DNA of 64,000 bases from Myxococcus xanthus (lineage in GTDB: Bacteria > Myxococcota > Myxococcia > Myxococcales > Myxococcaceae). Made by a program: the position numbers and the translations under genes. Below, piece by piece: positions 22,648-40,208 of this stretch (positions are counted from its first letter, which is position 1; every line of letters starts with the position of its first letter). The stretch is taken from the NCBI RefSeq assembly GCF_900106535.1, contig NZ_FNOH01000002.1, forward strand, positions 558,001 through 622,000, given 5' to 3'. Below the pieces are notes generated by a model that worked only from the letters and a program-made list of their open reading frames with translations, was not told where the DNA came from and ran no database searches.

Positions 22648-23632
22648 GCGCCCCCACCAGCACGAACAGCAACTGCACCAGGTGCCCCAGCAGCGCCACC
22701 GACATGGCGCGCGCGGCCGTGGTGTCCAGCACGCCCGCAGCCAGCGCGAAGGCGCCGTCACTCACCCCCACCTGCCCTGGCACCAGCGAGCCCACCGCCA
22801 GCGCGCACAGGTAGAGGCCCTGGGCGAAGAACGCCTGCACCAGTGAGGTGTCGATGCCCACCGCGTAGGTCAGCACGCCGTACTGCGCCACCTGGAACAG
22901 CCGACTGCACAAGAATGCCAGCATGGGCGACCACGGCAGCAACGAGCCACACCGCGCCGAGGCCTTGAACTGCTCCGCATGGAGCGCCCAGCGGCTGAAG
23001 CGACACACCAGCCACGCACCGGGCCGCTTCGCGCGCATGCACGCGCGCACGCCCACCGACACCAGCACCAGCAACCCGCCATGCGCCAGCATGAGCATCG
23101 TGAAGAGGGACATGCCCGTCAGCATGTAGGACGCGAGGGCGCAGGGGAACGAGATGAAGCCTCCCGCCGCCAGGGACGCCGCCTGCGAGGTCGCCGCCGC
23201 CGCGGTGGCGGTTCCCCCGCCCATGTAGGGACTCAGCAGGGCCGCCTTGGTGGCCTCCGCCGCGGCGCGGCCCGCCGGGGCCATGCTGGACACCGCGGTA
23301 CCGATAAGCTGCGCGCGGGCCAGGACGCGCCAGGGCACTCGCCCCGCTCCCGGTCCATAGGCACGTCGCGTGGCCAGCCCGTCCATGCACTGCCGCCCCA
23401 GCTCCAGCAGCACCACCCACGGCAGCCAGGGCGCCGCGCCGGACAACACGGCGCCCAGCTCGCGAGGCCCGGCCTTGTGGACCAGCAACGCCAGTGTGCC
23501 AACACCCGCCAGCGCGAAGACGGGCCGAAGCCCTACCACCATCCATCGCTTCAGGACCCGCTGCGGCGCCGCTGCTCCCACAGCGCCTGCTGGCGGGGCC
23601 AGGGACAACTCCCCGTGCGCGTTGCTCACCAT
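22583..23632 (-). CDS. Polytopic membrane protein, LPG-synthase TM/flippase-like (PF03706 type)
   Basis: 349 aa. ATG 23632 has AGGAGG upstream; the longer frame to 23770 is not protein-like. About seven or eight hydrophobic segments are visible, beginning VVGLRPVFALAGVGTLALLV. A conserved GTAVSSMAPAGRAAAEATKA loop and a C-terminal SLVPGQVGVSDGAFALAAGVL motif are characteristic of the lysylphosphatidylglycerol-synthase transmembrane (UPF0104) superfamily, which includes lipid flippases and glycosylated-lipid handling proteins. The soluble aminoacyl-transferase domain of MprF is absent. It sits in the inner membrane; the substrate is unknown. It converges with the molybdopterin gene. Confidence 0.82.
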   Translation of the reverse strand: MVSNAHGELSLAPPAGAVGAAAPQRVLKRWMVVGLRPVFALAGVGTLALLVHKAGPRELGAVLSGAAPWLPWVVLLELGRQCMDGLATRRAYGPGAGRVPWRVLARAQLIGTAVSSMAPAGRAAAEATKAALLSPYMGGGTATAAAATSQAASLAAGGFISFPCALASYMLTGMSLFTMLMLAHGGLLVLVSVGVRACMRAKRPGAWLVCRFSRWALHAEQFKASARCGSLLPWSPMLAFLCSRLFQVAQYGVLTYAVGIDTSLVQAFFAQGLYLCALAVGSLVPGQVGVSDGAFALAAGVLDTTAARAMSVALLGHLVQLLFVLVGALIPLVWRIRAPLPVAPAPACR

Positions 23633-23798
23633 CGACCTCCTCGCCGTCCCGTTGCCCGCAACGGAAAGTGAGCAGCGTGGACGCGACTGGCGAGCCCCGT
23701 CTGTCCGCCTGTCCCCAGCCACGCACGGGCCGCGTCCAGCGATGGACAGGCGTGCGCCCCAGGCGGACACTGCGGTGGATCACATCGGCAGATTGGGC

Positions 23799-23818
23799 GC
23801 TCGGCGCGCTCCTCGAAG
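23799..23818. repeat. Left copy of 20-bp direct repeat flanking toxin cassette
   Basis: GCTCGGCGCGC-T-CCTCGAAG, identical at 19 of 20 positions to the copy at 26170-26189. The two copies bracket the SitA5-like toxin and Imm11-like immunity genes, 2.4 kb apart. Confidence 0.5.
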
Positions 23819-23898
23819 CGGTCAGCTCGTCTCGTCAGGCTCTTCTGGTAGTTCTGGACTTGGCCTCGTAGGAGTACGCCCGGAACCGGAGGACGAGG

Positions 23899-25245
23899 AT
23901 GAGAGCGCATGCGGTCATCTGGCTGTCGCTGGCGCTTGCCGTCACGGGCTGCTCGACAACCCGGCTCGTACGTCTGGACACAGGGGATGGGCCTTCCAGG
24001 GTCCACACGCCGTTCACGGACGATGACACCGGGCCCGTGGAGCTGGACGACGATGAATTCGAGGAGGCCATGGTGGAACTCGCCCGGGACGTGCGGCCCT
24101 TCTCCAATCCCCTGCGCGAGGCCCGCCAGCGCTTCGGAGTCCCCGAGCGAAGCGGCGTGTACCTCTACCAGCCTCGCGGCCCCCGGCTCATTCTCCAGGA
24201 AGAGAAGGACCCGGACGGCCCACGCCTCCTCGAGTCCTACGCGGATGATGAGCTGACGCGCGCCTATGGCCGCTGGTGCGAACGCAAGTCGCAGCCCGGC
24301 GACTGCCTGCGCCTGCTGGCCGAAGGCCCGCTGCTGGCCAGCGACGGCAAGTACTCGCTGGCCATGGCCATCGCCATGGACTCGGTGTGGGAAGAGACGG
24401 CCGAGGCGCTGGAGGACATGGCCGACCCGCAGGCGCTGCTGGCGACGGTGAGTGCCTCGGTCAGCATGTACCTGCTCCTCTGGTCGCTGCCCGAGCCGGT
24501 GAGCAAGGGCCTGGCAGCCCTGCTGACGGCTACGGCCATTGCCTATCTGGGCGTGGACACCGTGTGGCGCATTCTGGACGGATGGATGGCGCTGGTGCGC
24601 ACGGTGGACCGAGCCACCACCTTTGTACAGCTCAGCGAAGCGGGCGAGGCGTACGGCGAAGTGCTCGGGGAGAACGCGGCGCGCGTCTTCGTCATGCTGG
24701 CCACGGCGGCCATCGGCCATACGGCGGGACTGGCGGCGAAGGCTTCGAGGCTGCCGGGCTCAGCGCAGGCTGCGCTCGCGGTGGAGACGCAAGCGGGCTA
24801 CCAGTATGTGGCCATTGGAGGCGTGCAGTCGGTGGCGATGACGGCCGAGGGATTCACCGTCGCACTGGCGCCCAACGCGGTCGCCATGGCGGCCCGGGGT
24901 ATGAGCGGCGGCCACACCGAGGACCACCACCTGGCGACGAACAAGAACAGCGTCTCCACCGCACGCGGCGGGCCCTGGACGCCGAAGTTCGAGAAGATTT
25001 TCAGGAAAGCAGGAATGGAGTTGAAGGACCCTGAGAACATCGTGCCCATTCCGGGCCACAAAGGGCCTCATCCGCAGGAGTATCACGACCTGATCCACGA
25101 GCGGCTGTACGACGCAACCCGCCGTTGCCGTAACGTTTCTGAGTGTAGAGAAGCACTGACGAGAGCACTCAGACGGCTGGCTGCGGAAACTCGCACCGCG
25201 GGAACGCGGTTGAACCAGCTTGTCACCAAGAGCGCACAGCCCTAG
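23899..25245 (+). CDS. SitA5-like lipoprotein toxin with C-terminal AHH nuclease domain
   Basis: 448 aa. ATG 23899 follows GGAGGACGAGG. A signal peptide ends AVTGC, so Cys18 is lipidated. The middle (about 45-330) is a conserved Myxococcus-specific carrier with an RAYGRWCERKSQPGDCLRLL motif and a hydrophobic MYLLLWSLPEPVSKGLAALL helix. The C terminus (about 340-405) is an AHH/HNH-like nuclease: HH at 343-344, ATNKN, GHKGPHPQEYH (H387, H391, H396) and H400. This composition matches the SitA5 family of myxobacterial polymorphic toxins, lipoproteins passed between kin cells by outer-membrane exchange and lethal to recipients lacking immunity. The immunity-type gene starts immediately after the stop. 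Confidence 0.88.
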   Translation: MRAHAVIWLSLALAVTGCSTTRLVRLDTGDGPSRVHTPFTDDDTGPVELDDDEFEEAMVELARDVRPFSNPLREARQRFGVPERSGVYLYQPRGPRLILQEEKDPDGPRLLESYADDELTRAYGRWCERKSQPGDCLRLLAEGPLLASDGKYSLAMAIAMDSVWEETAEALEDMADPQALLATVSASVSMYLLLWSLPEPVSKGLAALLTATAIAYLGVDTVWRILDGWMALVRTVDRATTFVQLSEAGEAYGEVLGENAARVFVMLATAAIGHTAGLAAKASRLPGSAQAALAVETQAGYQYVAIGGVQSVAMTAEGFTVALAPNAVAMAARGMSGGHTEDHHLATNKNSVSTARGGPWTPKFEKIFRKAGMELKDPENIVPIPGHKGPHPQEYHDLIHERLYDATRRCRNVSECREALTRALRRLAAETRTAGTRLNQLVTKSAQP

Positions 25246-25821
25246 ATGCCCGCCATGACCCAGCGCTTCTTCAGGTTGAAGGAGGATGTCCAGGTTCCAG
25301 GCCGTTGGCATCTGGATGACCCTCTGGACCAACATGGATGCGAGGTGGACGATCCGAGAAGCTTCAATGAGGGTCGTCCGGTCCCTGTGGAGGGGCATCT
25401 CAAGATCCCTATCCAGCATGTGGGCAAGCCGCTGGATTTCACGCTGACGGCCCTGAGCGTTCCCATCATCCACGTCAGGGTCGCGGAGGTCTTCACGGAG
25501 CTTGCCCCTGACGACGTGCAGCTCATTCCCGTCGATATCCAGGGCTACCCGGACCAGTACCTGCTCTTCGTGGTCACGCAGCTCGTGCGTTGTATCGATG
25601 AGAAAGCGTCCGAAGTGCAGTTCTGGATGCCGGAGGATGGGCTGCCCGAGAAGGTGGGCCGGTATTACGCCGTCGACAACCTGCGCATCGACGCCAAGAG
25701 GACAGGTGACACCAAGGTATTCCGCACGGAGGGCTGGCCTCTGGCCCTCATCGTCTCCGAGGACATCAAACAGGCACTGGAGCGTGTGAAGGCCACCGGT
25801 GTGAAGTTCACGCCGGTGTAG
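25246..25821 (+). CDS. Imm11 (DUF1629)-like immunity protein
   Basis: 191 aa. ATG 25246 abuts the toxin stop TAG (25243-25245), so both are translated from one message. The sequence (RFFRLKEDVQVPGRWHLDDP early on, a central VPIIHVRVAEVFTELAPDDVQLIPV and a C-terminal FRTEGWPLALIVSEDIKQAL) is typical of the Imm11/DUF1629 family found beside myxobacterial toxins. It has no signal peptide, so it should act in the cytoplasm, where the AHH nuclease acts. It probably neutralises its partner by direct binding; specificity is inferred from linkage. Confidence 0.85.
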   Translation: MPAMTQRFFRLKEDVQVPGRWHLDDPLDQHGCEVDDPRSFNEGRPVPVEGHLKIPIQHVGKPLDFTLTALSVPIIHVRVAEVFTELAPDDVQLIPVDIQGYPDQYLLFVVTQLVRCIDEKASEVQFWMPEDGLPEKVGRYYAVDNLRIDAKRTGDTKVFRTEGWPLALIVSEDIKQALERVKATGVKFTPV

Positions 25822-25888
25822 CTCGTGCGACCGCCCCACACCCCTGCTGTCTGAAGCACCTGGATGCAGAGGTGTTGGGGTCCTGATG

Positions 25889-26083
25889 TCACCCGCATGG
25901 CTCGTTCGTGCTGACCGCCTCCTCAGACGCCTGGAGACCACGGGGGCGCCGCATGCACAGCTCAAGCATCACTTCGTGGGCCCGCTTCGCCATGTCGTGC
26001 AGCTCCGCCGCCGCTTCTTCCTGGCCGTAGGCATCGCCCTCTCCAAGCCAGCGGCGGAGGTCCGCCGCCAGCTCCCGCGCCAT
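25889..26083 (-). pseudogene. Possible gene remnant (helical, charged)
   Basis: A minus-strand frame from MARELAADLRRWLGEGDAYG to a stop at 25889 (64 aa) reads as a charged amphipathic helix. It could be the tail of a Hanks-type kinase (ARY... ELAADLRRW resembles the last kinase helices) or of another regulator. No upstream catalytic part is visible and the upstream frame is Pro/Arg-rich noise. It is most likely a decayed fragment or chance. Confidence 0.2.
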
Positions 26084-26169
26084 CTGGTAGCGGGCGGCCG
26101 GCGGGGCTGGAGGAACCTGCGCAGCGCCCCCCGGAAGGCAAAGCGGTGGGGCACGGCGACTGCTTGGAT

Positions 26170-26189
26170 GCTCGGCGCGCCCCTCGAAG
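26170..26189. repeat. Right copy of 20-bp direct repeat flanking toxin cassette
   Basis: GCTCGGCGCGC-C-CCTCGAAG, one mismatch from the copy at 23799-23818. On the minus strand both copies continue into similar peptides (FE-x-RAE-x-P pattern), so the similarity may extend weakly beyond the 20 bp. Confidence 0.5.
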
Positions 26190-26236
26190 GCCGCTAGGGT
26201 GCGCCCCACACTCCCACACGAAGCATGGAGCGTCCC

Positions 26237-27223
26237 ATGAAAGCAGTGCGGTTCTCAGCCTTCGGACAGCCACTGAAGGTGGTGGAAGTCGTGGAGCAGC
26301 CGGACGTGGCGCTGAAGCCGGGCGAGGCCCGGGTTGAAGTGCTGGCCACGCCCATCAATCCCTCCGACATCCTCACGCTCAGCGGCCAGTACGGGCAGCT
26401 CCCGAAGCTCCCCGCTGTGCCCGGCAACGAAGGCGTCGGCCGCGTCGTCGAGGTCCAGGACTCCAGCGCCGTGAAGGTGGGTGACATCGTATTCCTCCCG
26501 CTGGGCGCGGGCACCTGGTGCACCCACTTGGTCGCTCCCGCGGACTCGCTCCTGCGGGTGCCGCCGGGAACCGACCTGCGGCAGGCCGCCATGCTGTTCA
26601 TCAATCCTCCGACCGCGGACCTCCTGCTGCGGGACTTCATCGCGCTGCAGCCCGGCGAGTGGGTGATACAGAACGCCGCCAACTCGGCGGTGGGCCGCTC
26701 CATCATCACCCTGGCGAAGCAGGCTGGCTTCAAGACGCTGAACGTGGTGCGGCGTGAAGAGCTGGCGCCGGAGCTCACCGCGCTGGGCGCGGACGCCGTG
26801 CTGCTGGACTCGGATGAACTGCCGGAGCGCGTGCGCGAAGTGACGGGCGGCGCCAAGGTCCGGCTGGCCATCGACGCCGTCGGCGGTGAATCCACCCAAC
26901 GCCTGGGTGACGCGCTCGCGCGCGGCGGCGTGGTGGTGAACTATGGCGCGATGAGCGGAAAGGGCCCTCGGTTGTCAGCCGCCGCCACCATCTTCAAGGA
27001 CATCACCCTGCGCGGCTTCTGGCTGGTGACGTGGACGAAGAAGACACCGCGCGAGGAGCAGGGCGCCCTGTTCGCCCGGCTCGCGAAGCAGGTGGCGGAA
27101 GGCGCACTGCACGTCCCGGTAGAGGGAACCTTCCCCTTGGAGTCCATCCAGGAGGCCCTGACGCGCGCCATGGAAGGTGGGCGCGCCGGCAAGGTGCTCC
27201 TCACGCCCAACGGCCCACTCTGA
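26237..27223 (+). CDS. Zinc-free MDR oxidoreductase, 2-enoyl thioester reductase-like
   Basis: 328 aa. ATG 26237 is preferred (MKAVRFSAFGQPLKVVEVVE); an ATG 12 bases earlier is possible. It is a GroES-fold medium-chain reductase with ATPINPSDILTLSGQYG and LPAVPGNEGVGRVVEV motifs. The coenzyme domain carries VIQNAANSAVGRSIITLAK in place of the usual GAGGVG fingerprint, which is characteristic of the MECR/ETR1 trans-2-enoyl-thioester reductases. Structural-zinc Cys residues are absent. It probably reduces enoyl-CoA or enoyl-ACP with NADPH in the cytoplasm. It stands alone, with an unrelated large gene convergent 22 bp downstream. Confidence 0.85.
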   Translation: MKAVRFSAFGQPLKVVEVVEQPDVALKPGEARVEVLATPINPSDILTLSGQYGQLPKLPAVPGNEGVGRVVEVQDSSAVKVGDIVFLPLGAGTWCTHLVAPADSLLRVPPGTDLRQAAMLFINPPTADLLLRDFIALQPGEWVIQNAANSAVGRSIITLAKQAGFKTLNVVRREELAPELTALGADAVLLDSDELPERVREVTGGAKVRLAIDAVGGESTQRLGDALARGGVVVNYGAMSGKGPRLSAAATIFKDITLRGFWLVTWTKKTPREEQGALFARLAKQVAEGALHVPVEGTFPLESIQEALTRAMEGGRAGKVLLTPNGPL

Positions 27224-27245
27224 GGCGCTGAGCGCCGCCGCTCCG

Positions 27246-29690
27246 TCAGCCCCATGGCCCCTGGAACAACACCCCGAAGCGCAGGGCCAGCTCCGGACGC
27301 CGCACCAGCAGCGTCCCCCACGCGGTGGCCTCCGACGTCCAGGTGGCCACCGACAGGCCGTGCGCCTCGAACACCGCCATCACGTCGTTGTTCACGCTCA
27401 TGACCTTCAACAGCCGCGTGTAGTCCAGCAGCGTGCGCAGCCGGGCCTCCGGGAAGCACACCTCCAGGTCGAGCGGCTGCACCGGCCCGCGCGGATTCAG
27501 CAGCACCAGCGGCGTGTGCAGCGGCGCGACCTCCACGTCATGCGCGGGCGGTGACGCCTCCACCTGACGCGCCATCAACTCCCGCTGGCGCTCCAGGTCC
27601 CGCTGGCGGGACGCCTCGACCATGCGCCGAAGCTCCGCCTCGTGCGCCTGGTCCTCCCGCTGCCGCTTTCGCTCGAGGTGCTCCCGAATCAACCGGACAT
27701 CGACCTCGATGTCCTTCAGGAAGTCGCGGGAGTAGCTCCGCTCGCTCGACGTAGGTGACGCGGCGACGACACGCTCCCGGAAGCTGGGGAACCAGGCCAG
27801 GAAGCGCTCCGCGTCCGGGTCGAGCGCGTCGACGTCCCGCCTCACGGTCGCCGACAACACCGCCGCCGCGTATGACACCGCGAGCGAGGTGGCACGCGGC
27901 CACGCATCCACCCGGACCTCCGCCGCCTTCCACACCGGTTCGAGGCGGCGCGACAGGTCCTCCGAGGGCGACTGACGGACCAGCGCATCCACACGCGCCG
28001 GTAGCTGCTCCGGGTCCTCCACCGGCCACCACGTCTGGAAGCACACCACCGCGTCAGGCTCCGCCGCCTGCTGCCGTTCCCAGATTTCCGCCCTCCACGG
28101 CGTGAAGGTGGCCAACAAGTCTGTGCGCTCGTCCGGGTGCTGCTGGAAACGCCGCCACACGGCGTCGATGAACCCGGCATGCTGACTGCCGCCACTCCAC
28201 GCGCGCACCACCTTCGCCAGCGGCGCCAGCAGGCGTTCGCGGCCCTCCCCCGTCCAGAGCGCCATCAACAAACGCGCGCCCTGGCCGGGAGCGAGCGCAT
28301 CGCCCCACCGCAGCCGTGAGGACAGTGACAGCACCGCCTCCAGCAACGGCTCCGTGCACGGCGCCTCTCGACTCCACGTGTGCAACCGGGGTGCATCCTC
28401 CTCGTCAGCGAGCGAGAGGAACCGGGAGAAGGCCGCGTCCTGGAAGCGGCTGGCGCGAAGCGATGGCGGCTCTCGCGCCAGGGACTCGGACACCGCTGAG
28501 ACGAAGGCGCGCGTCTCCTCCACCCGGTCCGCGTCCCGCGCGGCGGCGGCCCACTCGAGGAAACGAAGAGCATCCTCCGCGGAGAGCCGCGCCAGCCGCG
28601 CGAGCGCCCAGTCCGCCCACAACGCTCGTTCCTCCGGCGGCAACTCCGCGAAAGGCCGGCCACGGGCCCAGCCATGCAGCGCCTCCGCCAGTCCACCCGC
28701 CACCCGGTCCGACACGGCGAGCAACGCACTCAGCGCCCCCGGAGGCGCCTGCGCGGGCAACCGCCGCAACACGTCGAGCGCGAAGTCCGCATCTCCCCGC
28801 GACGCCATCCGCTCCAGCAGTCGCACGGAGCCCCGCGACGCCAACGCCCGACGCGCCTCCGCGGCCCGCGCCAGGTCCGTGGACTCCTCGGCTGCGAGGA
28901 GGCCATCCTCGTCCTGCAAGCAGAGCGCGCATTCGAAGCGCACATCCGCGTCCGGATGGTGCAGGCCCTCACGCAGCACGAGCAGCAGGTCCACGTCCGG
29001 CGCCTGCCCTGTGGCCCGCATCCACGCCACGGCGGCGCGCGCCCCCTGCTCCGGAAACCGGACGAAGGCGGCGCGAGCGAGCCGCGCGATGCGCTCGGTG
29101 GCCACCCGGGACCTGCACGCGCTTGGCCACACCCGCCACCGGGTGAGCGCCAGCGCCGCCTCGCAGCCGAAGCGGCCGTCATCCTCCAGACACGTCAGCA
29201 CCGTGTCGAGCGCCTCGTGCGAAGGCGTCCCTTCGTGGACGTCCACCAACGCGGCGAGCCACCGCGACTCCAGCGCGGGAACGGCGGTGTGCAGCCCCTC
29301 CTCCGGCTCGGCGGCGGGCTCCTCCTCGGGCACGTGCCAGGGAAGCCGCTGGGCCCACCGGTCCTCGACCTCCTCCTCGAAGCCCCGGAGCAACAACGCC
29401 TGCTCGTAGCGCCGCACGTCGACGAGCAGGCGCCGCACATGGGCCCACATCCTTGCGTAGCGCGCCTCCAACTGCTCCGCCATGGAGGTGGGGAGGAGCA
29501 ACACCCGGTCCGCCAGCGCATACCGGTCCACCCCCGCGTGCACGAGCATCCGCGCGGCGCCATACCGCTCCGGAGGAACCGGGCCGCAGTCGCACCGAGG
29601 GCACAGGAGGCCCGGCGTGTGGAAGCGCGTGCAGGCCGGGCAGCGGACCTGGGCCCCTCGGCGGGCACCATTCTCCAGCGGGGGATGCAT
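27246..29690 (-). CDS. Unrecognised 814-aa zinc-ribbon/helical-repeat protein
   Basis: 814 aa, ATG 29690. Function not recognised. The N terminus carries two Cys pairs (VRCPACTRFH and LLCPRCDCG at about 16-35), a likely zinc ribbon. Residues about 130-560 consist of many short helical units rich in Ala, Leu, Arg and Glu with HEAT-like spacing (for example a FECALCLQDEDGLLA unit). A highly charged coiled coil near 690-740 (KRQREDQAHEAELRRMVEA) is followed by a C-terminal domain of about 95 residues. No signal peptide or membrane segment is seen, so it is cytoplasmic. The next gene upstream is a divergent small lipoprotein, so it is probably transcribed alone. Confidence 0.75.
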   Translation of the reverse strand: MHPPLENGARRGAQVRCPACTRFHTPGLLCPRCDCGPVPPERYGAARMLVHAGVDRYALADRVLLLPTSMAEQLEARYARMWAHVRRLLVDVRRYEQALLLRGFEEEVEDRWAQRLPWHVPEEEPAAEPEEGLHTAVPALESRWLAALVDVHEGTPSHEALDTVLTCLEDDGRFGCEAALALTRWRVWPSACRSRVATERIARLARAAFVRFPEQGARAAVAWMRATGQAPDVDLLLVLREGLHHPDADVRFECALCLQDEDGLLAAEESTDLARAAEARRALASRGSVRLLERMASRGDADFALDVLRRLPAQAPPGALSALLAVSDRVAGGLAEALHGWARGRPFAELPPEERALWADWALARLARLSAEDALRFLEWAAAARDADRVEETRAFVSAVSESLAREPPSLRASRFQDAAFSRFLSLADEEDAPRLHTWSREAPCTEPLLEAVLSLSSRLRWGDALAPGQGARLLMALWTGEGRERLLAPLAKVVRAWSGGSQHAGFIDAVWRRFQQHPDERTDLLATFTPWRAEIWERQQAAEPDAVVCFQTWWPVEDPEQLPARVDALVRQSPSEDLSRRLEPVWKAAEVRVDAWPRATSLAVSYAAAVLSATVRRDVDALDPDAERFLAWFPSFRERVVAASPTSSERSYSRDFLKDIEVDVRLIREHLERKRQREDQAHEAELRRMVEASRQRDLERQRELMARQVEASPPAHDVEVAPLHTPLVLLNPRGPVQPLDLEVCFPEARLRTLLDYTRLLKVMSVNNDVMAVFEAHGLSVATWTSEATAWGTLLVRRPELALRFGVLFQGPWG

Positions 29691-29907
29691 GCGTCTTCTC
29701 TACACCGACTGGGGCCACTCCGCCCCACTCCTCAACCGTCGCGACGTAATTGTACGGCAAAGCCACACGGCATCCTCGAGTCATTCGCAATGCCATGGCG
29801 CGACTGTAACGCAAAATGTTTCAATTCCTCTCAACCTCCGCGCGCACCTGAGCGGCGCTCACGCCATCTGTTGCAACCAGTAGCTCTCACCCAAGGAGAA
29901 CCACCCC

Positions 29908-30318
29908 ATGAAGCAGACCATTGCTGTCCTGGCGGCGCTCGCCGTATCCACCCTGGTGGCCTGTGGTGGCGTTGAAGCCGTGGAGCCGCGGGAGGAACTG
30001 GGGCAGGAGTCGAGCGCCCTCGTCTCCTGTTCGACGGAGTGTGCGACGGGTCCGTCGCTCTCGTGTTGGGGCACGACCTGCTCCGCATCCAACGACCACT
30101 ACGTCCAGTGTGACGGCAACTACCAGTACTGCCCCACCACGCCCCCGCCGCCGCTCGACTGCAGCCTGTCGCGAGAGGCGTGCGTGAACGTCCTCGGCCT
30201 CGCATGCTCCCCCAGCGGCTCCACGCGGAAGTGCTGCATCGAAGACATGCCCATCGGCAACTGCCAGTGCATGCACAACGGTCAGTGGACGTGCACCGTC
30301 CCGGCCGAAGACCCGTAA
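29908..30318 (+). CDS. Small Cys-rich lipoprotein
   Basis: 136 aa. ATG 29908 follows AAGGAGA. Signal peptide with lipobox STLVAC (Cys19). The mature part carries about 13 further Cys residues in regular pairs (SCSTECATG, SCWGTTCS, YCPTT, DCSLSREACV, KCCIED, NCQCMHNGQWTC), suggesting several disulfides and an extracellular or periplasmic location. A PPPP linker near residue 80 separates two halves. It is similar in style to secreted small Cys-rich myxobacterial proteins, but no family is recognised. It is followed by a strong terminator, so it is a single-gene unit. Confidence 0.75.
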   Translation: MKQTIAVLAALAVSTLVACGGVEAVEPREELGQESSALVSCSTECATGPSLSCWGTTCSASNDHYVQCDGNYQYCPTTPPPPLDCSLSREACVNVLGLACSPSGSTRKCCIEDMPIGNCQCMHNGQWTCTVPAEDP

Positions 30319-30353
30319 ACCCATCCCGCGACCCAACTGACACGTGGAAGCCC

Positions 30354-30393
30354 GGGGAGCGGGCGCGCCCGACGCGCCCGCTCCCCCTTTCTT
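30354..30393 (+). terminator. Strong Rho-independent-type terminator
   Basis: GGGGAGCGGGCGCG (30354-30367) pairs perfectly over 14 bp with CGCGCCCGCTCCCC (30373-30386), with a five-base loop, followed by CTTTCTTC. It lies 36 bp after the small lipoprotein stop and isolates the following operon from read-through. Confidence 0.85.
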
Positions 30394-30498
30394 CGCGGCA
30401 GACGCTCCCGGCACACGCCATGGGTTGAGCGCGCCAAAGGAAGTTGAAGGATGGCTCAGGTAACGAATCCGCTATTTACGTAAAAATCTGGCTATCCA

Positions 30499-30527
30499 TT
30501 GACACGCTGTCCATTGCTCGATATTTG
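30499..30527 (+). promoter_or_regulatory. Near-consensus sigma-70 promoter of the AOS operon
   Basis: TTGACA (30499-30504) is separated by exactly 17 bases from TATTTG (30522-30527). The surrounding region (about 30465-30530) is unusually AT-rich for this window, and a TTTACGTAAA palindrome lies just upstream at 30475-30484. Transcription would start near 30534-30536. Confidence 0.75.
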
Positions 30528-30560
30528 TGATTCGCCACGAATGGGGGACCGTATCGAGCA
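30515..30560. promoter_or_regulatory. Nested dyad overlapping the AOS promoter start region
   Basis: TGCTCGATA (30515-30523) and TATCGAGCA (30552-30560) form a perfect 9-bp inverted repeat with 28 bases between. Inside, ATTCG (30530-30534) and CGAAT (30538-30542) form a second inverted repeat. The outer left arm overlaps the -10 box, so the dyad could be an operator or a hairpin at the transcript 5' end. Confidence 0.6.
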
Positions 30561-30770
30561 TCCTCAGGAATGCTCAGCGGCGTGGCTGCCCAGAACTCAC
30601 ACATCGTCACAACTGCGCTGGAGACCTCTCCACGAACAGCGGCCCCCTCCTTCCGGGCCGCCGGTCAGGATTCGTACGCTCGTATCCGCGGCTTGAGTGG
30701 CGCGGAGGGTGGGACGTGTCTGTCCGGCGGACGGAAGTGCCCGCCAGACGCGCACCAGGAAGCCACCGTC
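30561..30770 (+). other. Leader of the AOS operon
   Basis: About 210 bases between the dyad and the AOS start, within a longer open frame that shows no protein-like composition. It is therefore a long leader; no riboswitch class is recognised. The Shine-Dalgarno for AOS is GGAAG at about 30759-30763. Confidence 0.45.
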
Positions 30771-32075
30771 ATGGACCCAACCCGCAATGCCTTTCCCGAG
30801 AAGAACCGCAATCTCGCCGTGGGCTCCGCCCGGCTCCAGGAAGTCCAGAAGGCGGTCCATTACTACGTGGACAACCATCACTGTGACGTCATTGGACGGG
30901 TGTTTCACGGGATGCCGGGCCGGGAGGCGCGCGTCAGCTTCAGTCCGACGCGCCGGGATGTGAGGCTGAACGCGGAGGGACCTCGGGACGTCCTCCACTT
31001 CGGCTCCTACAACTACTCCGGGCTGAACGGGCACCCGCGCGTGGTGGCCGCGGCGGAGGCGGCGCTGCGCCGCTACGGGACGACGGTCAGCGGCGTGCGT
31101 CTGCTCAACGGGACGTGTGAGCTGCACCTGGAGCTGGAGCGCGCGTTGGCGGAGTTCCTGGGCTTCGAGGACTGCGTCACCTACAGCAGCGGCTACGCGG
31201 CGAACCTGTCCGTGTTGTCCGCACTGTGTGCTGAGGGCGACGTGGTGCTGTCGGACATGCTCAACCACCAGTCCATCATCGACGGGCTGAAGCTGTCCGG
31301 CGCGGACATCCGCACCTACCGGCACAAGAGCCTGCGCAGCATCGAGTCCACGCTGAAGAAGCTGCCATACGAGCAGCGCAAGTTCATCATCACCGACGGC
31401 GTGTTCAGCATGGACGGCGACGTGGCGGACCTGCCGGGCATCGTGGCGCTGGCGGAGAGCTACAACGCCTTCATCCTCGTGGATGACGCGCACGCCACCG
31501 CCGCCATGGGGCCCAACGGCCGCGGCACCCCGGCCTATTTCGGGCTCCAGTCGCAGGTGGACGTGCTCACCGGCAGCCTCAGCAAGGGCCTGCCGGGCAT
31601 CGGTGGGTTCGCCGCCGGCTCCAAGGCCACCATCGACCTGCTGCGCTTCGGCTCCAACGGCTACATCTTCTCCGCCTCGCTGCCGCCGCCCATCGCCGCG
31701 GGCCTGCTGGAGGGCATCCGCATCCTCCAGGAGCAGCCCGAGCTCCAGGAGCGCCTGCACCACAACGAGAACTACCTGCGCGCCGGCATCCGCTCCATGG
31801 GCCTGGACTGCATGAACAGCGAGTCCCCCATCATCCCCATCCTGATGCCCGCCTACGAGAAGACGTTCGAGCTGACGCGGCTGCTCCACCTGGAGGGCAT
31901 CTACGTCAACCCGGTGGGCTACCCCGCCGTGAGCAAGAACCGCACGCGCCTGCGCATCAACGTCAGCGCCAACCTCACCCAGGCGGACCTGGACCGATTC
32001 CTGGACGCGCTGGACCGCTGCAGCCGCAAACTCAACCTCCAGGACGCGCCGCCGCTCCAGCAGACCGGCACCTGA
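30771..32075 (+). CDS. Alpha-oxoamine synthase (serine palmitoyltransferase/KBL-like), PLP-dependent
   Basis: 434 aa. ATG 30771 is chosen over the longer open frame because it follows GGAAG and starts the conserved protein. Motifs of alpha-oxoamine synthases are all present: FGSYNYSGL (79-85), SGVRLLNGTCELHLELE, the external aldimine VDDAHATAAMG (D239, H241) and the PLP lysine K272 in TGSLSKGLPGIGGF. These enzymes condense an amino acid with an acyl-CoA and release CO2, giving a 3-keto amino product. The FGSYNY motif is common in serine palmitoyltransferases. It is the first gene of a five-gene operon. A long-chain-base product is inferred, not proven. Confidence 0.88.
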   Translation: MDPTRNAFPEKNRNLAVGSARLQEVQKAVHYYVDNHHCDVIGRVFHGMPGREARVSFSPTRRDVRLNAEGPRDVLHFGSYNYSGLNGHPRVVAAAEAALRRYGTTVSGVRLLNGTCELHLELERALAEFLGFEDCVTYSSGYAANLSVLSALCAEGDVVLSDMLNHQSIIDGLKLSGADIRTYRHKSLRSIESTLKKLPYEQRKFIITDGVFSMDGDVADLPGIVALAESYNAFILVDDAHATAAMGPNGRGTPAYFGLQSQVDVLTGSLSKGLPGIGGFAAGSKATIDLLRFGSNGYIFSASLPPPIAAGLLEGIRILQEQPELQERLHHNENYLRAGIRSMGLDCMNSESPIIPILMPAYEKTFELTRLLHLEGIYVNPVGYPAVSKNRTRLRINVSANLTQADLDRFLDALDRCSRKLNLQDAPPLQQTGT

Positions 32076-32115
32076 GCCGGCGCCCTACGCCACCCACGCC
32101 ACTGGAAGACCCGCC

Positions 32116-33396
32116 ATGGACCTCAAGGAACAGCTCCTCTACGGCCTGCCCGTGTTCCTCGCTCCCATCCTCATCGAGCTGGTGGTGGGGCTCTTGCGGC
32201 GCAAGCCGGCCTACCGGCTCAATGACCTGCTCACCAACGTGACGATGAGCCTGCTCACCGTCCTGGGCAGCGTGGTCATCGCGGGCGCCACCTTCGTCTT
32301 CTACGGCTACGTCTACAAGCACCACGCCCTCTTCAGCCTGGCGAAGGACTCCGCGTGGACGTGGGTGGTGGCCTTCTTCGCCTACGACTTCTTCTATTAC
32401 TGGGCGCACCGGATGCACCACACCATGGCGTGGATGTGGGGCGTCCACGTCGCCCACCACTCCGGCGAGGACATGAACTTCGGCCTCGCGGTGCGGCAGA
32501 GCGCGCTGGGTGAGCTGACCACGTGGCCCTTCTTCGTGCCCATGGCGCTGCTGGGCATCGCGCCGGAGGTGTTCCTGGGCATCACCGGCATCCAGCTCAT
32601 CTTCCAGTACGCCATCCACAACACCTACGTGCCGCCGCTGGGCTGGCTGGAGTACGTGCTCGTCACGCCCTCCCAGCACCGCGTCCACCACAGCCGCAAC
32701 ACGCCATACATCGACAAGAACTACGGCAACATCCTCGTCGTCTGGGACCTGCTGTTCCGCACCTACCAGCCGGAGCTGAAGGACCAGCCTCCCGTCTACG
32801 GCCTGCGCAGCAGCCTGCGCTCGTGGAACCCCTTCACCGCGCACTTCCACTACTTCGTGGAGCTGTTCCAGAAGTCCGCCGCCTGCGCGCGGCTGGCCGA
32901 CAAGGTGCTGTGCTTCATCAAGGGGCCGGACTGGAACCCGCCGTCGCTGCGCCAGGAGCGCTTCACCGGCCCCCCGGATGGCGGCCCGTCCGCCACCTTC
33001 CAGAAGTACGACCCGCGCCTGCCCTTGCCCGTCACCGCCTACTGCGTGACACAGTTCTTCAGCCTGGCGGCCAGCATCCTGCTGCTCGCGTGGTACCTGG
33101 ACACGCTCAGCCCCGGGGCCCGCGCCGTAACGCTGGGGCTGGTCCTCTTCGGTACCTGGAGCCTGGGCGCGCTGATGGACTCGCGCGCCTTCGCGTGGCG
33201 GCAGGAGTTCGCGCGGCTGGCGGGTATCGCGCTGCTGGGTCCCGCCCTGGCGCTGATGGAGGGCGTTCCGCTGGTCAGCGCGCTCCCCATCCTGCTCCAC
33301 CCCGCCCTCAGCGCCGCGTGGCTGCTGCGCTTCCGCGCCGCGTTCCACGAAGGCGCTGACACCTCCACGCGAGGCTCCAGCGCCCTGGCCGCCTGA
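32116..33396 (+). CDS. Membrane di-iron hydroxylase (sterol desaturase/AGMO-like)
   Basis: 426 aa. ATG 32116 follows GGAAGA. About eight hydrophobic segments. The eight-His di-iron signature of the fatty-acid hydroxylase superfamily is present: HRMHH followed by HVAHHS and, after a membrane pair, HNTYVPPLGW and QHRVHHSR. Motif spacing resembles alkylglycerol monooxygenase and sphingoid-base C4/fatty-acid hydroxylases. It uses oxygen and a reductant to hydroxylate or desaturate a lipid chain in the membrane. It lies 40 bp after the oxoamine synthase; in this operon the likely substrate is the long-chain amino product (inference). Confidence 0.85.
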   Translation: MDLKEQLLYGLPVFLAPILIELVVGLLRRKPAYRLNDLLTNVTMSLLTVLGSVVIAGATFVFYGYVYKHHALFSLAKDSAWTWVVAFFAYDFFYYWAHRMHHTMAWMWGVHVAHHSGEDMNFGLAVRQSALGELTTWPFFVPMALLGIAPEVFLGITGIQLIFQYAIHNTYVPPLGWLEYVLVTPSQHRVHHSRNTPYIDKNYGNILVVWDLLFRTYQPELKDQPPVYGLRSSLRSWNPFTAHFHYFVELFQKSAACARLADKVLCFIKGPDWNPPSLRQERFTGPPDGGPSATFQKYDPRLPLPVTAYCVTQFFSLAASILLLAWYLDTLSPGARAVTLGLVLFGTWSLGALMDSRAFAWRQEFARLAGIALLGPALALMEGVPLVSALPILLHPALSAAWLLRFRAAFHEGADTSTRGSSALAA

Positions 33397-33440
33397 AAGC
33401 CCCGTCCCCTGTTTCGACGTCCCCAACCCACCCGAAAGAC

Positions 33441-34709
33441 ATGACCGCGTCCGCACCCGTCACCGGAAGCGCTCCCGCCTTCCACACCTTCCCGCGCCCC
33501 CTCGACGTGCGTTGGGTCGGCTCCATCAACGACATCGGCCGGGAGGACTGGCACACCTGCTTCCCACCCACCGACGTGATGCAGTCCTTCGAGCTGCACC
33601 AGGCCACCGAGGCCGCCAGCATCGAGGACGTGCGGTTCCACTACCTGGTCCTCCGGAACGAGGGCGCGGTGGTGGCCATCGTCCCCTGCTTCCGCTTCCG
33701 GATGTCGCTGACGGTCATCGCCCCGGAGAACGTCAACAAGGTGGTGTCCCAGGTCCGCCGCGCGTTCCCGGACTTCCTCTTCCTGAACGCGTTCGTCATC
33801 GGAACGCCCATCGCCATCTGCAAAGACCTGCTGGGCGTGCGCGCGGACCTGCCGAAGGCGCGGCGTGACGACGTGCTGCGCGCCATCTCCCGCGAGGTGA
33901 TTGCCCGCGCCCGGCACCTGAAGCTGGGCCTGGTCTTCATGAAGGAGTTCACCTCCCAGAAGCTGCCCGAAGTGAAGGACGTGCTGTCCCCGCGCTTCAA
34001 CTTCGTGGAGAGCGCGGCCACCACCTACCTGTACCTGGGCGAGCCCGGGAAGAGCACCTTCAAGGAGCGGCTGCGCAAGAAGTACCGCTCCCTGATGAAC
34101 AACCGCATGGCCCGCGTCCAGGAGGCGGGCATGCGCTGGGAGACCGTCTCCGACTTCTCACGCTACGCCGCGCAGATGCACCCGCTGTACCTGCAGGTCC
34201 TCAACCGCTCGAAGATTCGCTTCGAGACGCTCAGCGTGGACTTCTTCGCCCAGCTCCCCCAGCGCCTGGGCGACCGCGTCTTCGCGCTCCTGTGCTTCAA
34301 GGGCGAGCAGTTGGTGTCCTTCGAGCTGTTCCTCAAGGACGCGGAGTGGGTCCACCCCATCTACCTGGGCCTGGACTACAGCCTCCGCGACGAGGGCGCG
34401 CTGTACTTCAACAGCATCTACAAAATCGTGGAGGTGCTGGAGTCCCAGGGCAAGTCGGTGGTGCAGTTGGGACAGACGAGCTACGCGGTGAAGGCCAGCA
34501 TCGGCGCGGTGGTGGACCGGCTGTACCTGGCCGTGCACCACACGAACCCGGTGCTGGACCAGTTGCTGAAGCGCTTCGGCGCGGAGCTCTTCCCGCCCAC
34601 GCCCCTGCCCCGCTCGCAGCGCGTGTTCCGGGACATGAAGGAGAACGACGACGGCCTGGCCCGCCATGGCATCCACTTCGAGCGACTGGACGCGGAGGGC
34701 GACGAATGA
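33441..34709 (+). CDS. FemAB/GNAT-like acyltransferase 1
   Basis: 422 aa. Two tandem GNAT-type folds as in FemAB/BioF2 and PF04339-like proteins. The second half contains the signature KERLRKKYRSLMNNRMARVQ with a basic helix, then MHPLYLQV, LGLDYSLRDEG and LGQTSYAVKASIGA. The same series recurs in the next gene, so the two are paralogues. Some bacterial ceramide synthases are GNAT-superfamily proteins of this type; N-acylation of the oxoamine product is therefore plausible. No membrane helix is seen. The stop overlaps the next start as ATGA. Confidence 0.8.
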   Translation: MTASAPVTGSAPAFHTFPRPLDVRWVGSINDIGREDWHTCFPPTDVMQSFELHQATEAASIEDVRFHYLVLRNEGAVVAIVPCFRFRMSLTVIAPENVNKVVSQVRRAFPDFLFLNAFVIGTPIAICKDLLGVRADLPKARRDDVLRAISREVIARARHLKLGLVFMKEFTSQKLPEVKDVLSPRFNFVESAATTYLYLGEPGKSTFKERLRKKYRSLMNNRMARVQEAGMRWETVSDFSRYAAQMHPLYLQVLNRSKIRFETLSVDFFAQLPQRLGDRVFALLCFKGEQLVSFELFLKDAEWVHPIYLGLDYSLRDEGALYFNSIYKIVEVLESQGKSVVQLGQTSYAVKASIGAVVDRLYLAVHHTNPVLDQLLKRFGAELFPPTPLPRSQRVFRDMKENDDGLARHGIHFERLDAEGDE

Positions 34710-35899
34710 CGGCGCAGGCGGGCATCACCACGAAAGTCGTCCCTCGCATCCAGGACGTGCCCCAGGCGCTGTGGGACGACAAGGTGGCGCGGGGCCACCC
34801 CTTCAAGAGCGCCGCGTTCCTCTCCTGCCTGGAGGACTCGTTCCCGGAGCGGAAGTTCGGCTACCTCATCGTGTCGCAAGGCGCGGACGTCGTCGGACTG
34901 GCGGTCATCACCGAGGAGCGCCTGGACTTGAGCCTGCTGCTGCCGGAGCAGGTGGGCACGCTGACCAAGGGCGTGCGCAAGGTGCTGCCCGGCTTCCTGT
35001 CGCTGGGCCTGGGCATGGTGGGTACCTTCGAAACGGCGGAGCGGCACTGGTGGTACGACGCGCAGCGCGTTTCCGAGCACGACTTCGCGCGGGCGCTGCT
35101 CGCCGCTTGCGACGAGGTGTGTGGCGACGCCGCGCTGCTGCTGGTGCGCGACTTCATGGAGGCCCTGCCCGAGGACGTGCGCCTGGAGTCGTGGTTCCTC
35201 CAGCGGGGCTTCAAGCAGGTGGCCAACCACCCCATGGCCATGGTGGCGCTGGACGGGCTGAGCAGCGAGGCCCACTTCCAGCGGCTGAAGAAGAAGTCGC
35301 GGCAGAACCTGCGCAAGAAGCTGAAGGACGCAGAGGCGCTGGGCTTCCAGGTGGAGCGGGTGCGGGACTTCCGCCCCCTCATCGACGAGTGCTACCCGCT
35401 CTACCTCCAGGTCCACGAGGGCGCGTCGGAGTTCAAGCGCAACCCATTCCCTCGGGCCTTCTTCGAGACCATCGCGGAGCGGATGCCCACCACCAGCAGC
35501 TTCCTCACGCTGCGGGATTCGGCCGGGCACCTGATTGCCTTCATCCTCACGGGCACCGGGGGCGGCATCAACAACCCCTTCTGCATCGGCATGGACTACG
35601 CCCGGACGGAAGGCACGCCGGCCTACTACCTGATGATGTGGAAGGAAATCGAGCACGCGGCCCGCACGGGATGCCGCGTGGTGGACCTGGGCCTCACCAG
35701 CTACTTCGTGAAGCAGACGGTGGGCGCGGAGCTGGAGGGCATGACGATGGCCGCCCGCATCCAGTCCGCGTGGCTGCGGCCCCTGCTCAATCCCCTGCTG
35801 CCCGCGCTGCTGAGCGAGAAGCAGCCGCAGGAGCGACGGAAGTTCCGCGTCTCCACCTTCGACGACGACTCGCAGCCCCCCACTGACCAGGCCGCTTGA
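34706..35899 (+). CDS. FemAB/GNAT-like acyltransferase 2
   Basis: 397 aa. ATG 34706 overlaps the previous stop (ATGA); the open frame upstream is a shadow. It shares the order of motifs with its neighbour: a basic KKSRQNLRKKLKDAEALGF helix, YPLYLQV, a GMDYARTEGTPAYY strand-helix and DLGLTSYFVKQTVGAELEG. The N-terminal half is a second, degenerate GNAT fold. Co-occurrence of two such transferases suggests two acyl (or aminoacyl) additions or a heteromer. It probably acts on the product of the oxoamine synthase; the acyl donor is not predictable. Confidence 0.8.
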   Translation: MTAQAGITTKVVPRIQDVPQALWDDKVARGHPFKSAAFLSCLEDSFPERKFGYLIVSQGADVVGLAVITEERLDLSLLLPEQVGTLTKGVRKVLPGFLSLGLGMVGTFETAERHWWYDAQRVSEHDFARALLAACDEVCGDAALLLVRDFMEALPEDVRLESWFLQRGFKQVANHPMAMVALDGLSSEAHFQRLKKKSRQNLRKKLKDAEALGFQVERVRDFRPLIDECYPLYLQVHEGASEFKRNPFPRAFFETIAERMPTTSSFLTLRDSAGHLIAFILTGTGGGINNPFCIGMDYARTEGTPAYYLMMWKEIEHAARTGCRVVDLGLTSYFVKQTVGAELEGMTMAARIQSAWLRPLLNPLLPALLSEKQPQERRKFRVSTFDDDSQPPTDQAA

Positions 35900-35901
35900 C
35901 C

Positions 35902-36744
35902 ATGCTCCGCTTCGCCTACGGCTGCATTCCCTCCGTCATGTCCCTGTACTTCGCCAACACCCTGGTGCGGCGAGCAGGGCTGGCGCCCGCGTGCATCCTC
36001 CTGTCCGCGGGGGGCCTGCGCTTCCAGAAGAAGCGCTACACCCCGGCCCAAGTGCTGCCTGTCTTCCTGAAGCAGTTTGGCCCGCGCTTCACCGGCTACA
36101 ACGTGCTCGCCGGGCTGAGTGGCTCGCTGCCCTTCAGCATTCCCGCCTCGGGGTTGATGAGCTTCCAGGCGCTCTCCCAGGCGTATGGCATTCCGCTGGT
36201 CATCAGTGATGACTTCTCCGGAGCGGCCACGGTGAGCGAGCTCGAGCGGCACGGGGTGGAGTTGTTCCTCACCAGCATGTGCGATCAAATCATCCGGGAG
36301 CCACTGCTCAGTCTGCCGCGCCATGGCTGTTTGAACATCCACCCATCGCTGCTGCCGGAGTTCCGCGGCGTGGACTCCGTCTTCCAGGCCATGCTGAACG
36401 GCGTGTCTGAGATTGGAACGACACTCCACCGCACCACCGCGCGCATCGACGCGGGCGACGTGCTGGCCCAGAGCGCGTTCACCCGTACGGCCGCCGATTC
36501 CCACCTGGCGTTGACGGCGAAGGCGACCGCCGCGGGCATTGCCCTGCTCAAGCGGCACATGGAGACCCTGGAGCGCGGAGAGACGCCGGACGCGCGCCCC
36601 ATCGACGTGAGCCGGGCGCGATATCCCTACCGCTCCTGGCCGGAACGGGAGGAGCTGCGCCGCTTCCACGCCCAGGGGAACACCTTCTGGCGGGCGTCGG
36701 ACTTCCGCCGCCTCCTCGCCTTCGAGGACGTGCTGGCGACATAG
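35902..36744 (+). CDS. Formyltransferase-family protein (PurN/Fmt-like)
   Basis: 280 aa. ATG 35902 is used; TTG 35896 overlapping the previous stop is an alternative. The catalytic triad of 10-formyltetrahydrofolate-dependent formyltransferases is intact: N145 and H147 in CLNIHPSLLPEFRG, and D183 in RIDAGDVLAQ. The folate-binding loop region is present, but the N-terminal 85 residues diverge from PurN and Fmt, so the substrate is different. It could N-formylate an amine made by the operon, or a sugar amine. It is the last gene, followed by a strong terminator. Confidence 0.83.
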   Translation: MLRFAYGCIPSVMSLYFANTLVRRAGLAPACILLSAGGLRFQKKRYTPAQVLPVFLKQFGPRFTGYNVLAGLSGSLPFSIPASGLMSFQALSQAYGIPLVISDDFSGAATVSELERHGVELFLTSMCDQIIREPLLSLPRHGCLNIHPSLLPEFRGVDSVFQAMLNGVSEIGTTLHRTTARIDAGDVLAQSAFTRTAADSHLALTAKATAAGIALLKRHMETLERGETPDARPIDVSRARYPYRSWPEREELRRFHAQGNTFWRASDFRRLLAFEDVLAT

Positions 36745-36758
36745 CGCGACACAAACGA

Positions 36759-36791
36759 CACGCCGGGCGGGAGAGGCTCCCACCCGGCGTG
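36759..36791. terminator. Bidirectional terminator hairpin
   Basis: CACGCCGGG (36759-36767) pairs over 9 bp with CCCGGCGTG (36783-36791), and an inner 5-bp stem GGGAG/CTCCC continues it. It lies between two convergent genes and can serve both. Confidence 0.8.
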
Positions 36792-36809
36792 GATGCTTCG
36801 GACCGCTGA

Positions 36810-37628
36810 CTACTTGCCGCGGCTGATGGACTCGCTGTGGATGGTCAGCGCGCTCGCGGCGGCCGTCAGGTCGATGGCCGAGAAGCTGGTGTACGGGTAG
36901 TGGCCATCGCCCAGCTCCTCGACGAACTCGACGTGGTCACCGCTGACCTCGCGGCCGTCGAAGTCGAACGTGAAGGCTCCCGGCGTCGCACTGCGGAAGG
37001 ACCACACGCAGGCGCCCGTGGGGATGGTGTCATTGAACCCGAAGGTCATGTGGTTGCGGAAGCCGATGTGGATGGGCGTGAAGCGGATGTGGATGTCGTA
37101 CCAGGACGCATCCATCGGGAACCAGAGGCCGCGGTTGATGTGCCGACCCTGGAACTGACCGCCGTTGTACACGTACACACTGTAGGTCGAACCGCCCGGC
37201 GTGCCGGTGAACTGCGGCTGGAACGTCACCTGGCCCGGCTCACGGCCGATGCCGACCTGGACGGTGCTGACCACCTGGTCGCCATCACGCGCCGCCAGGG
37301 CGAAGCCCTGTCCGGCCTTGGCGAGGTCCTGGAAGACGGCCTTCTGCTCCCACTGCGTCGCGGCGGCGAAGTTGCTGGAGACGCCGTCGTTGGCGGCCTT
37401 CTCCAGGCCGGTGACGTTGAGGCCCTTCTCCGTGCGCTCGAGCTTCGCGTTGCCCGTGGCGCAGTTCGTGATGCCGGCGAAGGTCTCAACGCACTGCGCC
37501 TTCACAGGCGCTTCCTGGGCCGAAAGCGCGTCAGCCTCGGCAGGCTGCGACTCCTCGCCCTGGCAACCCGCGGCCGTCAGACTCAGGAGTGCTGCCGCCA
37601 TCAGGCGGCCCGTCAGCTTGATGCTCAT
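36810..37628 (-). CDS. Lipoprotein with beta-sandwich-like domain
   Basis: 272 aa. ATG 37628 precedes a signal peptide ending SLTAAGC (lipobox). The mature part has few Cys (CVETFAGITNCATG near the start and CVWSF later) and many aromatic beta strands (STYSVYVYNGGQFQGRHI, FTPIHIGFRNHMTFGF, YTSFSAIDLT), suggesting a beta-sandwich at the cell surface. I recognise no family. It is convergent with the AOS operon behind the shared terminator and has its own upstream region, so it is a single unit. Confidence 0.72.
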   Translation of the reverse strand: MSIKLTGRLMAAALLSLTAAGCQGEESQPAEADALSAQEAPVKAQCVETFAGITNCATGNAKLERTEKGLNVTGLEKAANDGVSSNFAAATQWEQKAVFQDLAKAGQGFALAARDGDQVVSTVQVGIGREPGQVTFQPQFTGTPGGSTYSVYVYNGGQFQGRHINRGLWFPMDASWYDIHIRFTPIHIGFRNHMTFGFNDTIPTGACVWSFRSATPGAFTFDFDGREVSGDHVEFVEELGDGHYPYTSFSAIDLTAAASALTIHSESISRGK

Positions 37629-38018
37629 GGATGAAAAACCTCTCGTTGGGGGATGACGACTTCCGGGTCTCCGGTGAAGACCCGGAGACCGCGTTTGCAC
37701 CCAGCGCGCCAGCGGTGGCGGACGGCGCCGCCGCTCGGTGCGGGCTCACCGGCCACCCCGCTCGCGAGCACGCGACGTAGCGCGCGACGTCACAAAAACC
37801 GGCTCCTGTGGCGAGCCCTGTTACACCCCAGGCAGCCAAGGAGCGCCTTTCATGCGGCTTCATGAAGCTCGGGGTACGGGTCCAACGAGACACCTGCCGG
37901 CAGTGTGTGCCACGGGCTGGCTGGGTTCTGGGATTTCGTACCAACCCGCCATATCCCCTATGCTTCGTCACCGTCGCCCGGGAGCCCGGCCGGACTTCCC
38001 CCCGGAGAAGGCTGGAAC
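37629..38018. other. 390-bp divergent gap
   Basis: Promoter region for the lipoprotein (minus) and the PilZ gene (plus). It contains a perfect 12-bp palindrome GCTTCATGAAGC at 37857-37868. Open frames across it have no protein-like composition. I see no gene. Confidence 0.5.
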
Positions 38019-38393
38019 ATGAACAGCGCCAGCGTGAATGAATCCCCCACGGATCGTCGTCGCTTTCCTCGGCTCGAGGCGCCGCTCTATGCCCGGCCCG
38101 CGCGACTGAGGCGCGTGGACAAGCAGCAGGTGCTGGACGCCAGCCTGGGGGGCATCCGCATCTACTCCGACGAGCAGTACACCCAGGACTCCGAGTTGGA
38201 GCTGGACCTGTTCCTGCGTGACGGCACTTCGCTGGAGTGCAAAGCGCGTGTGGCCTGGATGCGCAAGCTTCCCAAGGACGCGGTGGCGCGCTTTGAAGTC
38301 GGCCTGGCCTTCACGGACGTACCGCCGCTGGCCATGGACAAGCTCAAGTCGGTGCTCGTCGTGGATGACGAGGGCGGCCCGGCCGACTCATAG
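38019..38393 (+). CDS. PilZ-domain protein
   Basis: 124 aa. ATG 38019 follows a GGAGAAGG site. The two c-di-GMP-binding motifs are visible: RRRFPRLEAP (RxxxR type) at about 13-22 and DASLGGIRI (D/NxSxxG) near 45, followed by the beta-barrel strands ending in RFEVGLAFTDV. PilZ domains bind cyclic di-GMP and regulate motility, polysaccharide or gene expression; single-domain members act by binding a partner. It is cytoplasmic. Its last 6 bp overlap the end of the TetR gene on the other strand. Confidence 0.88.
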   Translation: MNSASVNESPTDRRRFPRLEAPLYARPARLRRVDKQQVLDASLGGIRIYSDEQYTQDSELELDLFLRDGTSLECKARVAWMRKLPKDAVARFEVGLAFTDVPPLAMDKLKSVLVVDDEGGPADS

Positions 38394-40141: not shown

Positions 40142-40192
40142 TGCGCGCTCCACCCGCCGGCGTGGGCCATCCACGCCGCCTGGAGTCTTTAT

Positions 40193-40208
40193 TAGGTCGA
40201 TTGACCTA
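40193..40208. promoter_or_regulatory. Probable TetR operator
   Basis: TAGGTC (40193-40198) and GACCTA (40203-40208) form a perfect 6-bp inverted repeat with 4 bases between. It lies 52 bp upstream of the start of the two-gene operon that encodes the TetR protein, where its promoter is expected, in an AT-richer patch. The arrangement fits autorepression. Confidence 0.6.

Follow-up and report, generated by a model that had tools for sequence, protein, structure and literature searches.

A probable structured 5′ leader between a conserved promoter and an accessory lipid-type operon of Myxococcus xanthus

The region preceding a putative lipid operon in a 64,000-nucleotide stretch of Myxococcus xanthus DNA (the whole stretch analysed, hereafter the window) is best read, from its sequence, as specifying a cis-acting, riboswitch-like structured 5′ leader. 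Across the loci compared, the distance from the promoter to a compact RNA domain is fixed, the reading frame through the region is not kept and the domain is restricted to this operon. That the leader is structured is probable, with substantial doubt attached to eight sequences from about three lineages, and we lean towards a joint account in which a housekeeping-type promoter and a conserved three-way-junction 5′ leader act in cis on the operon. According to this account, a TTGACA-N17-TANNNN promoter would start the mRNA at about position 30534 and the first ~53 nt of the transcript would fold into a three-way junction consisting of P1, a GGGA-capped P2 and P3. This domain would head an untranslated leader of ~237 nt with further hairpins and would influence operon expression in cis, the likeliest route being that its fold alters translation initiation or the stability of the mRNA.

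The accessory lipid-type operon consists of five genes on the + strand downstream of the leader (30771–36744). The first gene (30771–32075) encodes a member of the alpha-oxoamine synthase family (serine palmitoyltransferase/BioF/Kbl-like). It is followed by a fatty acid hydroxylase superfamily gene (32116–33396), a FemAB-like gene (33441–34709) whose score of 22.2 bits lies under the Pfam cut-off of 27 bits, a gene without a Pfam or NCBIfam family (34666–35886) and a formyltransferase-like gene (35896–36744). Upstream of the leader, a small lipoprotein-like gene (29908–30318), for which the Pfam search returned no family, is ended by a strong intrinsic-terminator-like hairpin on the + strand (30354–30386; 14 pairs, 13 of them GC), and this predicted hairpin separates it from the operon.

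The promoter looks real. Its −35 element, TTGACA (30499–30504, + strand), is conserved in all nine homologous loci compared, namely the eight close homologues and that of Pyxidicoccus fallax, and a TANNNN hexamer lies 17 bp downstream in 9/9, a spacing that had been preset in cutting out the loci for this comparison. The −10-like element of the window is TATTTG (30522–30527, + strand); among the nine loci the hexamer reads TATTTG in three, TATCTG in three, TAACTG in two and TATTAA in P. fallax. The first-pass annotation had located all of its motifs exactly, and its assignment of the promoter to an amino-lipid operon is supported by the TTGACA-N17-TANNNN arrangement in 9/9 loci and by the lipid-type genes next downstream. 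Its description of the promoter as near-consensus is overstated, because the −10 matches TATAAT at only 3/6 positions (against 6/6 for the −35), lacks the final T and falls below the threshold of a promoter scan of 22000–41000, which listed no promoter. Sigma-70-type promoters start transcription 6–8 nt after the −10. The present promoter resembles the housekeeping members of that type in TTGACA, the 17-bp spacing and an A+T-rich upstream stretch, but differs from them in a −10 that is TANNTG in the eight close loci, with the final T missing.

Conservation of the promoter carries more weight than occurrence of its string. TTGACA is depleted in the window, with two copies on both strands together (at 913 and 30499), whereas 30 dinucleotide shuffles averaged 11.4. 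The promoter is the sole site on either strand of the window that combines a −35 match of at least 5/6 with at least 9/12 matches in all at a spacing of 16–18. In the whole genome, TTGACA-N16–18-TANNTG occurs six times and a reversed-pattern control five times, so the promoter string by itself proves nothing. Upstream of the −35, an A+T-rich stretch on the + strand (30475–30498), which holds the palindrome TTTACGTAAA (30475–30484), is a possible UP-like element; the 30 bp preceding TTGACA are 47–70% AT across the nine loci, compared with 30% for the window overall.

Alignment of the upstream regions of seven, and then eight, loci revealed a conserved RNA domain of ~53 nt (30534–30586, + strand) that we propose to form a three-way junction. 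In 8/8 loci the seventh base after the −10 is the first of GCCACG, with exactly 6 nt in between, and the transcription start is predicted at 30534 from its spacing to the −10. GCCACG (30534–30539) would form the 5′ strand of P1 by pairing with CGUGGC (30581–30586). P2 is a hairpin, AUGG-GGGA-CCGU (30541–30552), that takes the form AYGG-GGGA-CCRU in most loci, and its pairs vary among UG, CG and UA at one site, between AU and GC at a second and between GC and GU at a third; we take its GGGA loop to be a GNRA-type tetraloop. P3 is the hairpin GAGCAUCC..GG(A)AUGCUC (30556–30575), which extends the core GAGCA/UGCUC and shows a UA/CG exchange in four of the eight loci and a change from A-U to G-U in one. 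The junction strand AGCGG, which reads GGCGG in the two Corallococcus loci, leads from P3 into the 3′ strand of P1 (30576–30586 for the two together). Three blocks, GCCACG, GGGGGAC and GCGGCGUGGC, are invariant in all eight loci. Invariant columns, counted on an alignment in which the L007 row was without its last columns, are most frequent at 30522–30600 (13, 12, 8 and 13 per 20-column bin). Above the promoter they drop sharply, to 0–6 per bin up to about 30480, and in bins further down the leader they reach up to 12 of 20.

The three-helix structure, which was tested on the same eight sequences from which it was derived, is paired in 95.8% of 144 cells. Its covariation score of 0.188 was reached by none of 500 shuffles (0.128 ± 0.020), a comparison in which sequences of close kin may beat shuffles even without structure, and sliding the partner by 1–3 columns gave at most 0.073. 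P2 was added to the structure after it had appeared in single-sequence folds of the isolated domain, and covariation counted with P1 and P3 only is weaker than after this addition. P1 is uninformative on covariation because it is invariant; P2 and P3 alone score 0.283 compared with 0.193 (0/500 shuffles). Two other measures do not set the structure apart from shuffles: double-sided pair changes number 3 compared with 1.5 in shuffles (reached by 60/500) and further pair types 8 compared with 8.6 (reached by 476/500), in a set of eight sequences from about three lineages that consequently holds few independent changes.

The RNAalifold energy of the domain lies at z = −3.05 relative to conservation-preserving column shuffles, of which 6 in 1000 were as low. 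When the two strands were put through the same comparison, the antisense strand gave z = −4.79 and the sense strand −2.82; as the antisense value is no less significant than the sense value, energy cannot tell the strand, and the sense strand is favoured by its orientation after the promoter and by the G-U pairs. Seven intervals upstream of the start, where the alignment is poor, showed no structure (z from 0.32 to 0.65). Single-sequence folding is modest, with z-scores at the eight loci of −1.78, −1.78, −1.81, −3.23, −2.50, −3.15, −1.83 and −0.80. The lowest-energy fold of the isolated 55–58-nt domain contains P1 in 8/8 loci and P2 in six, the two that lack it including the window. In 80-nt pieces P1 is found in the lowest-energy fold in four of the eight loci, and in the full-length leader its probability is at most 0.01 in all eight; co-transcriptional folding might give the 5′ domain an advantage. 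An H-type pseudoknot between GGGGG and a downstream CCC was rejected, as the loop–tail duplex was no better than with shuffled tails in 7/8 loci (p from 0.21 to 0.99) and exceeded them only in L034 (p = 0.02).

The distance from GCCACG to the synthase ATG is nearly constant, at 237 nt in four loci, 238 nt in two and 234 and 235 nt in the others. Two further hairpins are predicted on the + strand of this leader: P4 (30616–30634), which lies in a part of the leader with z = −2.85 (columns 81–138) and shows no pair-preserving change among the eight loci, and P5 (30639–30661; GCGGCCC/GGGCCGC), in which one pair changes from CG to UA in two of the eight. The + strand from 30534 to 30771 gave no terminator-like site. 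The Shine-Dalgarno and start region, GGAAGCCACCGUC (30758–30770, + strand), has a possible partner in GGCGUGGCUGCC (30579–30590). Their pairing is present in the RNAalifold consensus of the leader and in the ensembles of three of the eight loci (the window, L003 and L036; about 0.5–0.8), whereas the remaining five give it at most 0.04. Because GGCGUGGCUGCC includes the 3′ strand of P1 and could pair with the Shine-Dalgarno region, P1 would serve as an anti-sequestor, and these modelled pairings hint faintly at a translational switch that works by sequestering the Shine-Dalgarno sequence. The lack of a terminator between the domain and the gene, together with the potential of the P1 3′ strand to pair with the Shine-Dalgarno region, makes an effect on translation or mRNA stability the most plausible route.

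Homologues of the synthase are patchily distributed, being present in 12 of 96 Myxococcaceae genomes at E ≤ 1e-120. Eight of these are 89–100% identical to the synthase of the window, that of P. fallax is 81% identical and three are 66–67% identical; the loci of Myxococcus sp. CA023 and Myxococcus vastator are near-identical to the window. The domain was sought with two covariance models, with stricter filters in searches over more than 40 genomes. With model R1, 64 of the 96 family genomes match at E ≤ 1, eight of them strongly (77.6–107.2 bits), and the next match scores 26.7 bits. All eight strong matches precede the synthase on the same strand, 234–238 nt before its ATG, and the same eight are the strong ones among the 32 at E ≤ 0.1 in 195 genomes of the phylum. 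With the three-helix model R2, 28 match at E ≤ 0.5 in 39 relatives, five of them strongly, and 24 match at E ≤ 0.05 in the 195 phylum genomes, eight of them strongly (69.6–92.5 bits) and the next at 32.1 bits. Beyond the strong matches, the models found only matches below 33 bits; the alignments were viewed for 10/30 and 4/4 rows of these weak matches and the others were judged by score, and the two whose gene context was checked, L111 and L101, both lie within long open frames. The domain is single-copy in its own genome. It is absent before the synthase homologues of P. fallax and of the 66–67% group, and in the Pantoea, Pseudomonas and Xenorhabdus relatives. In P. fallax (L035, 3796–3970) the synthase homologue is preceded by TTGACA-N17-TATTAA and by a leader that is shorter and different and lacks the three-way junction.

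The proposed element resembles riboswitches and other structured leaders in several respects: it would head an operon mRNA within a long untranslated leader, its multi-helix junction has an invariant joining strand, and it may pair alternatively with the ribosome-binding site. It differs from them in having no Rfam match, in preceding a single type of operon, found in about three lineages, and in being known here from sequence alone. Purine, TPP and c-di-GMP-I riboswitches have three-way-junction aptamers built from a closing P1 and two further helices, as proposed for this domain, and the c-di-GMP-I riboswitch carries a GNRA-type tetraloop in one arm, as P2 would here. The window differs from these aptamers in its Rfam result: a cmscan at E up to 10, covering 4227 Rfam families, gave only two matches, both to other families and at chance level (AS-traI at 14.8 and Xoo1 at 14.3 bits, compared with gathering scores of 99 and 70). 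Rfam searches of L037, L034 and L033 likewise gave no credible match, and a known RNA family was rejected on the ground that no Rfam score reached the gathering threshold in the window or in these three loci. No description of the leader was found in the open-licence literature searched, including term look-ups in the main texts of PMC11109978, which gave no hit, and PMC8632094, which gave two passages on other matters. The structured leader is of a known kind, as a member apparently undescribed in Rfam and in the literature searched. Should it prove regulatory, myxobacteria would have a structured cis-element absent from Rfam and attached to an accessory lipid operon, and this would offer a handle on the timing of lipid production and possibly on the cue to which the cell responds. 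A stronger proposal, that the domain represents a new lineage-restricted riboswitch class with a GGGA-armed aptamer for one of three ligands (amino acid, acyl donor or the amino-lipid itself) that would feed back on the operon by freeing or hiding its ribosome-binding site, we consider unlikely.

The rival explanation that survives best, possible though not probable in our judgement, is a generic one: a conserved promoter followed by a G+C-rich leader whose folding is fortuitous and whose likeness across loci reflects kinship, with a 5′ hairpin that at most stabilises the mRNA. The high G+C content, the modest single-sequence z-scores, the equally good folding of the antisense strand and the small number of lineages are consistent with it. 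So is the conservation of the synthase gene: in comparisons of the window with L033, L034 and L037, its fourfold-degenerate sites show 82–85% identity. Most of the leader is no more conserved than these sites, which disfavours strong selection on the leader. However, chance folding of related sequences sits poorly with a covariation score above all 500 shuffles and a column-shuffle z of −3.05, with the position 6 nt from the −10 and near-constant leader length in all eight loci, and with the invariance of GCCACG, GGGGGAC and GCGGCGUGGC in the same eight.

An operator in the DNA is improbable. On this reading, which follows the first-pass annotation's view of a tightly regulated promoter, a repressor or activator would bind the dyads that overlap the −10 and so gate the promoter; the location, which would fit a repressor, and the A+T-rich palindrome upstream suit it. 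The outer dyad is present as described, with perfect 9-bp arms TGCTCGATA (30515–30523) and TATCGAGCA (30552–30560), and encloses an inner dyad, ATTCG (30530–30534) and CGAAT (30538–30542). Such a repeat is ordinary in the window, where 36 perfect 9-bp inverted repeats with spacers of 3–40 occur compared with 25.8 ± 5.0 in 30 shuffles, and the outer dyad is the only one of the 36 to have an arm with at most four G/C. It is exact in the window and its three nearest relatives, but keeps only 6, 5, 4 and 1 of its 9 Watson-Crick pairs in the remaining four of the eight close loci (9 of 9 in the first four). The inner dyad is broken in three of the seven loci checked, and TTTACGTAAA is exact in two of seven. 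Comparison of the upstream region in relatives, which had been suggested as a check, thus found the dyad arms neither conserved nor compensated, lack of dyad conservation being among the refuting conditions that the first-pass annotation itself had named, and because the arms diverge in this way we reject the operator dyad as the main account. A lineage-specific operator may exist as a variant of the same idea, and the conserved P1 arms GCCACG..CGTGGC could likewise be taken for an inverted repeat in the DNA, in which case the G-U pairs of P2 and P3 would count as mismatches. The right arm of the outer dyad overlaps one strand of the P3 helix, and a promoter-overlapping dyad in a single genome can be a by-product of one conserved RNA hairpin arm. 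A copy of a mobile element or repeat was also rejected: the exact dyad occurs once in the 9.26-Mb genome, the leader is single-copy, and the window has no phage match and no tRNA.

Upstream coding, as a short leader peptide or a longer synthase N-terminus from 30570, is very improbable: an open frame runs from an ATG at 30570 into the synthase in the window and also in L003 and L032, but the frame is not kept across loci, being shifted by 1-nt and 2-nt indels, the codon at 30570 is ATG, GTG or GGG, and the ATG at 30771 after GGAA is kept in 8/8.

Some observations concern the operon in other genomes. In Pantoea sp. Ap-967 and Pseudomonas cremoricolorata, homologues of the hydroxylase and FemAB-like genes flank the synthase homologue, with the hydroxylase upstream. 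The open frame around the synthase homologue of L061 (G022) spans 1316 aa with one internal TGA, so that the synthase and the next gene apparently share one frame with a single stop between them. The contig of L033 (BNCN01000015.1) is titled Comamonas sp. KCTC 72670 and carries the myxobacterial operon with a synthase 95% identical to that of the window; its title looks like a misidentification.
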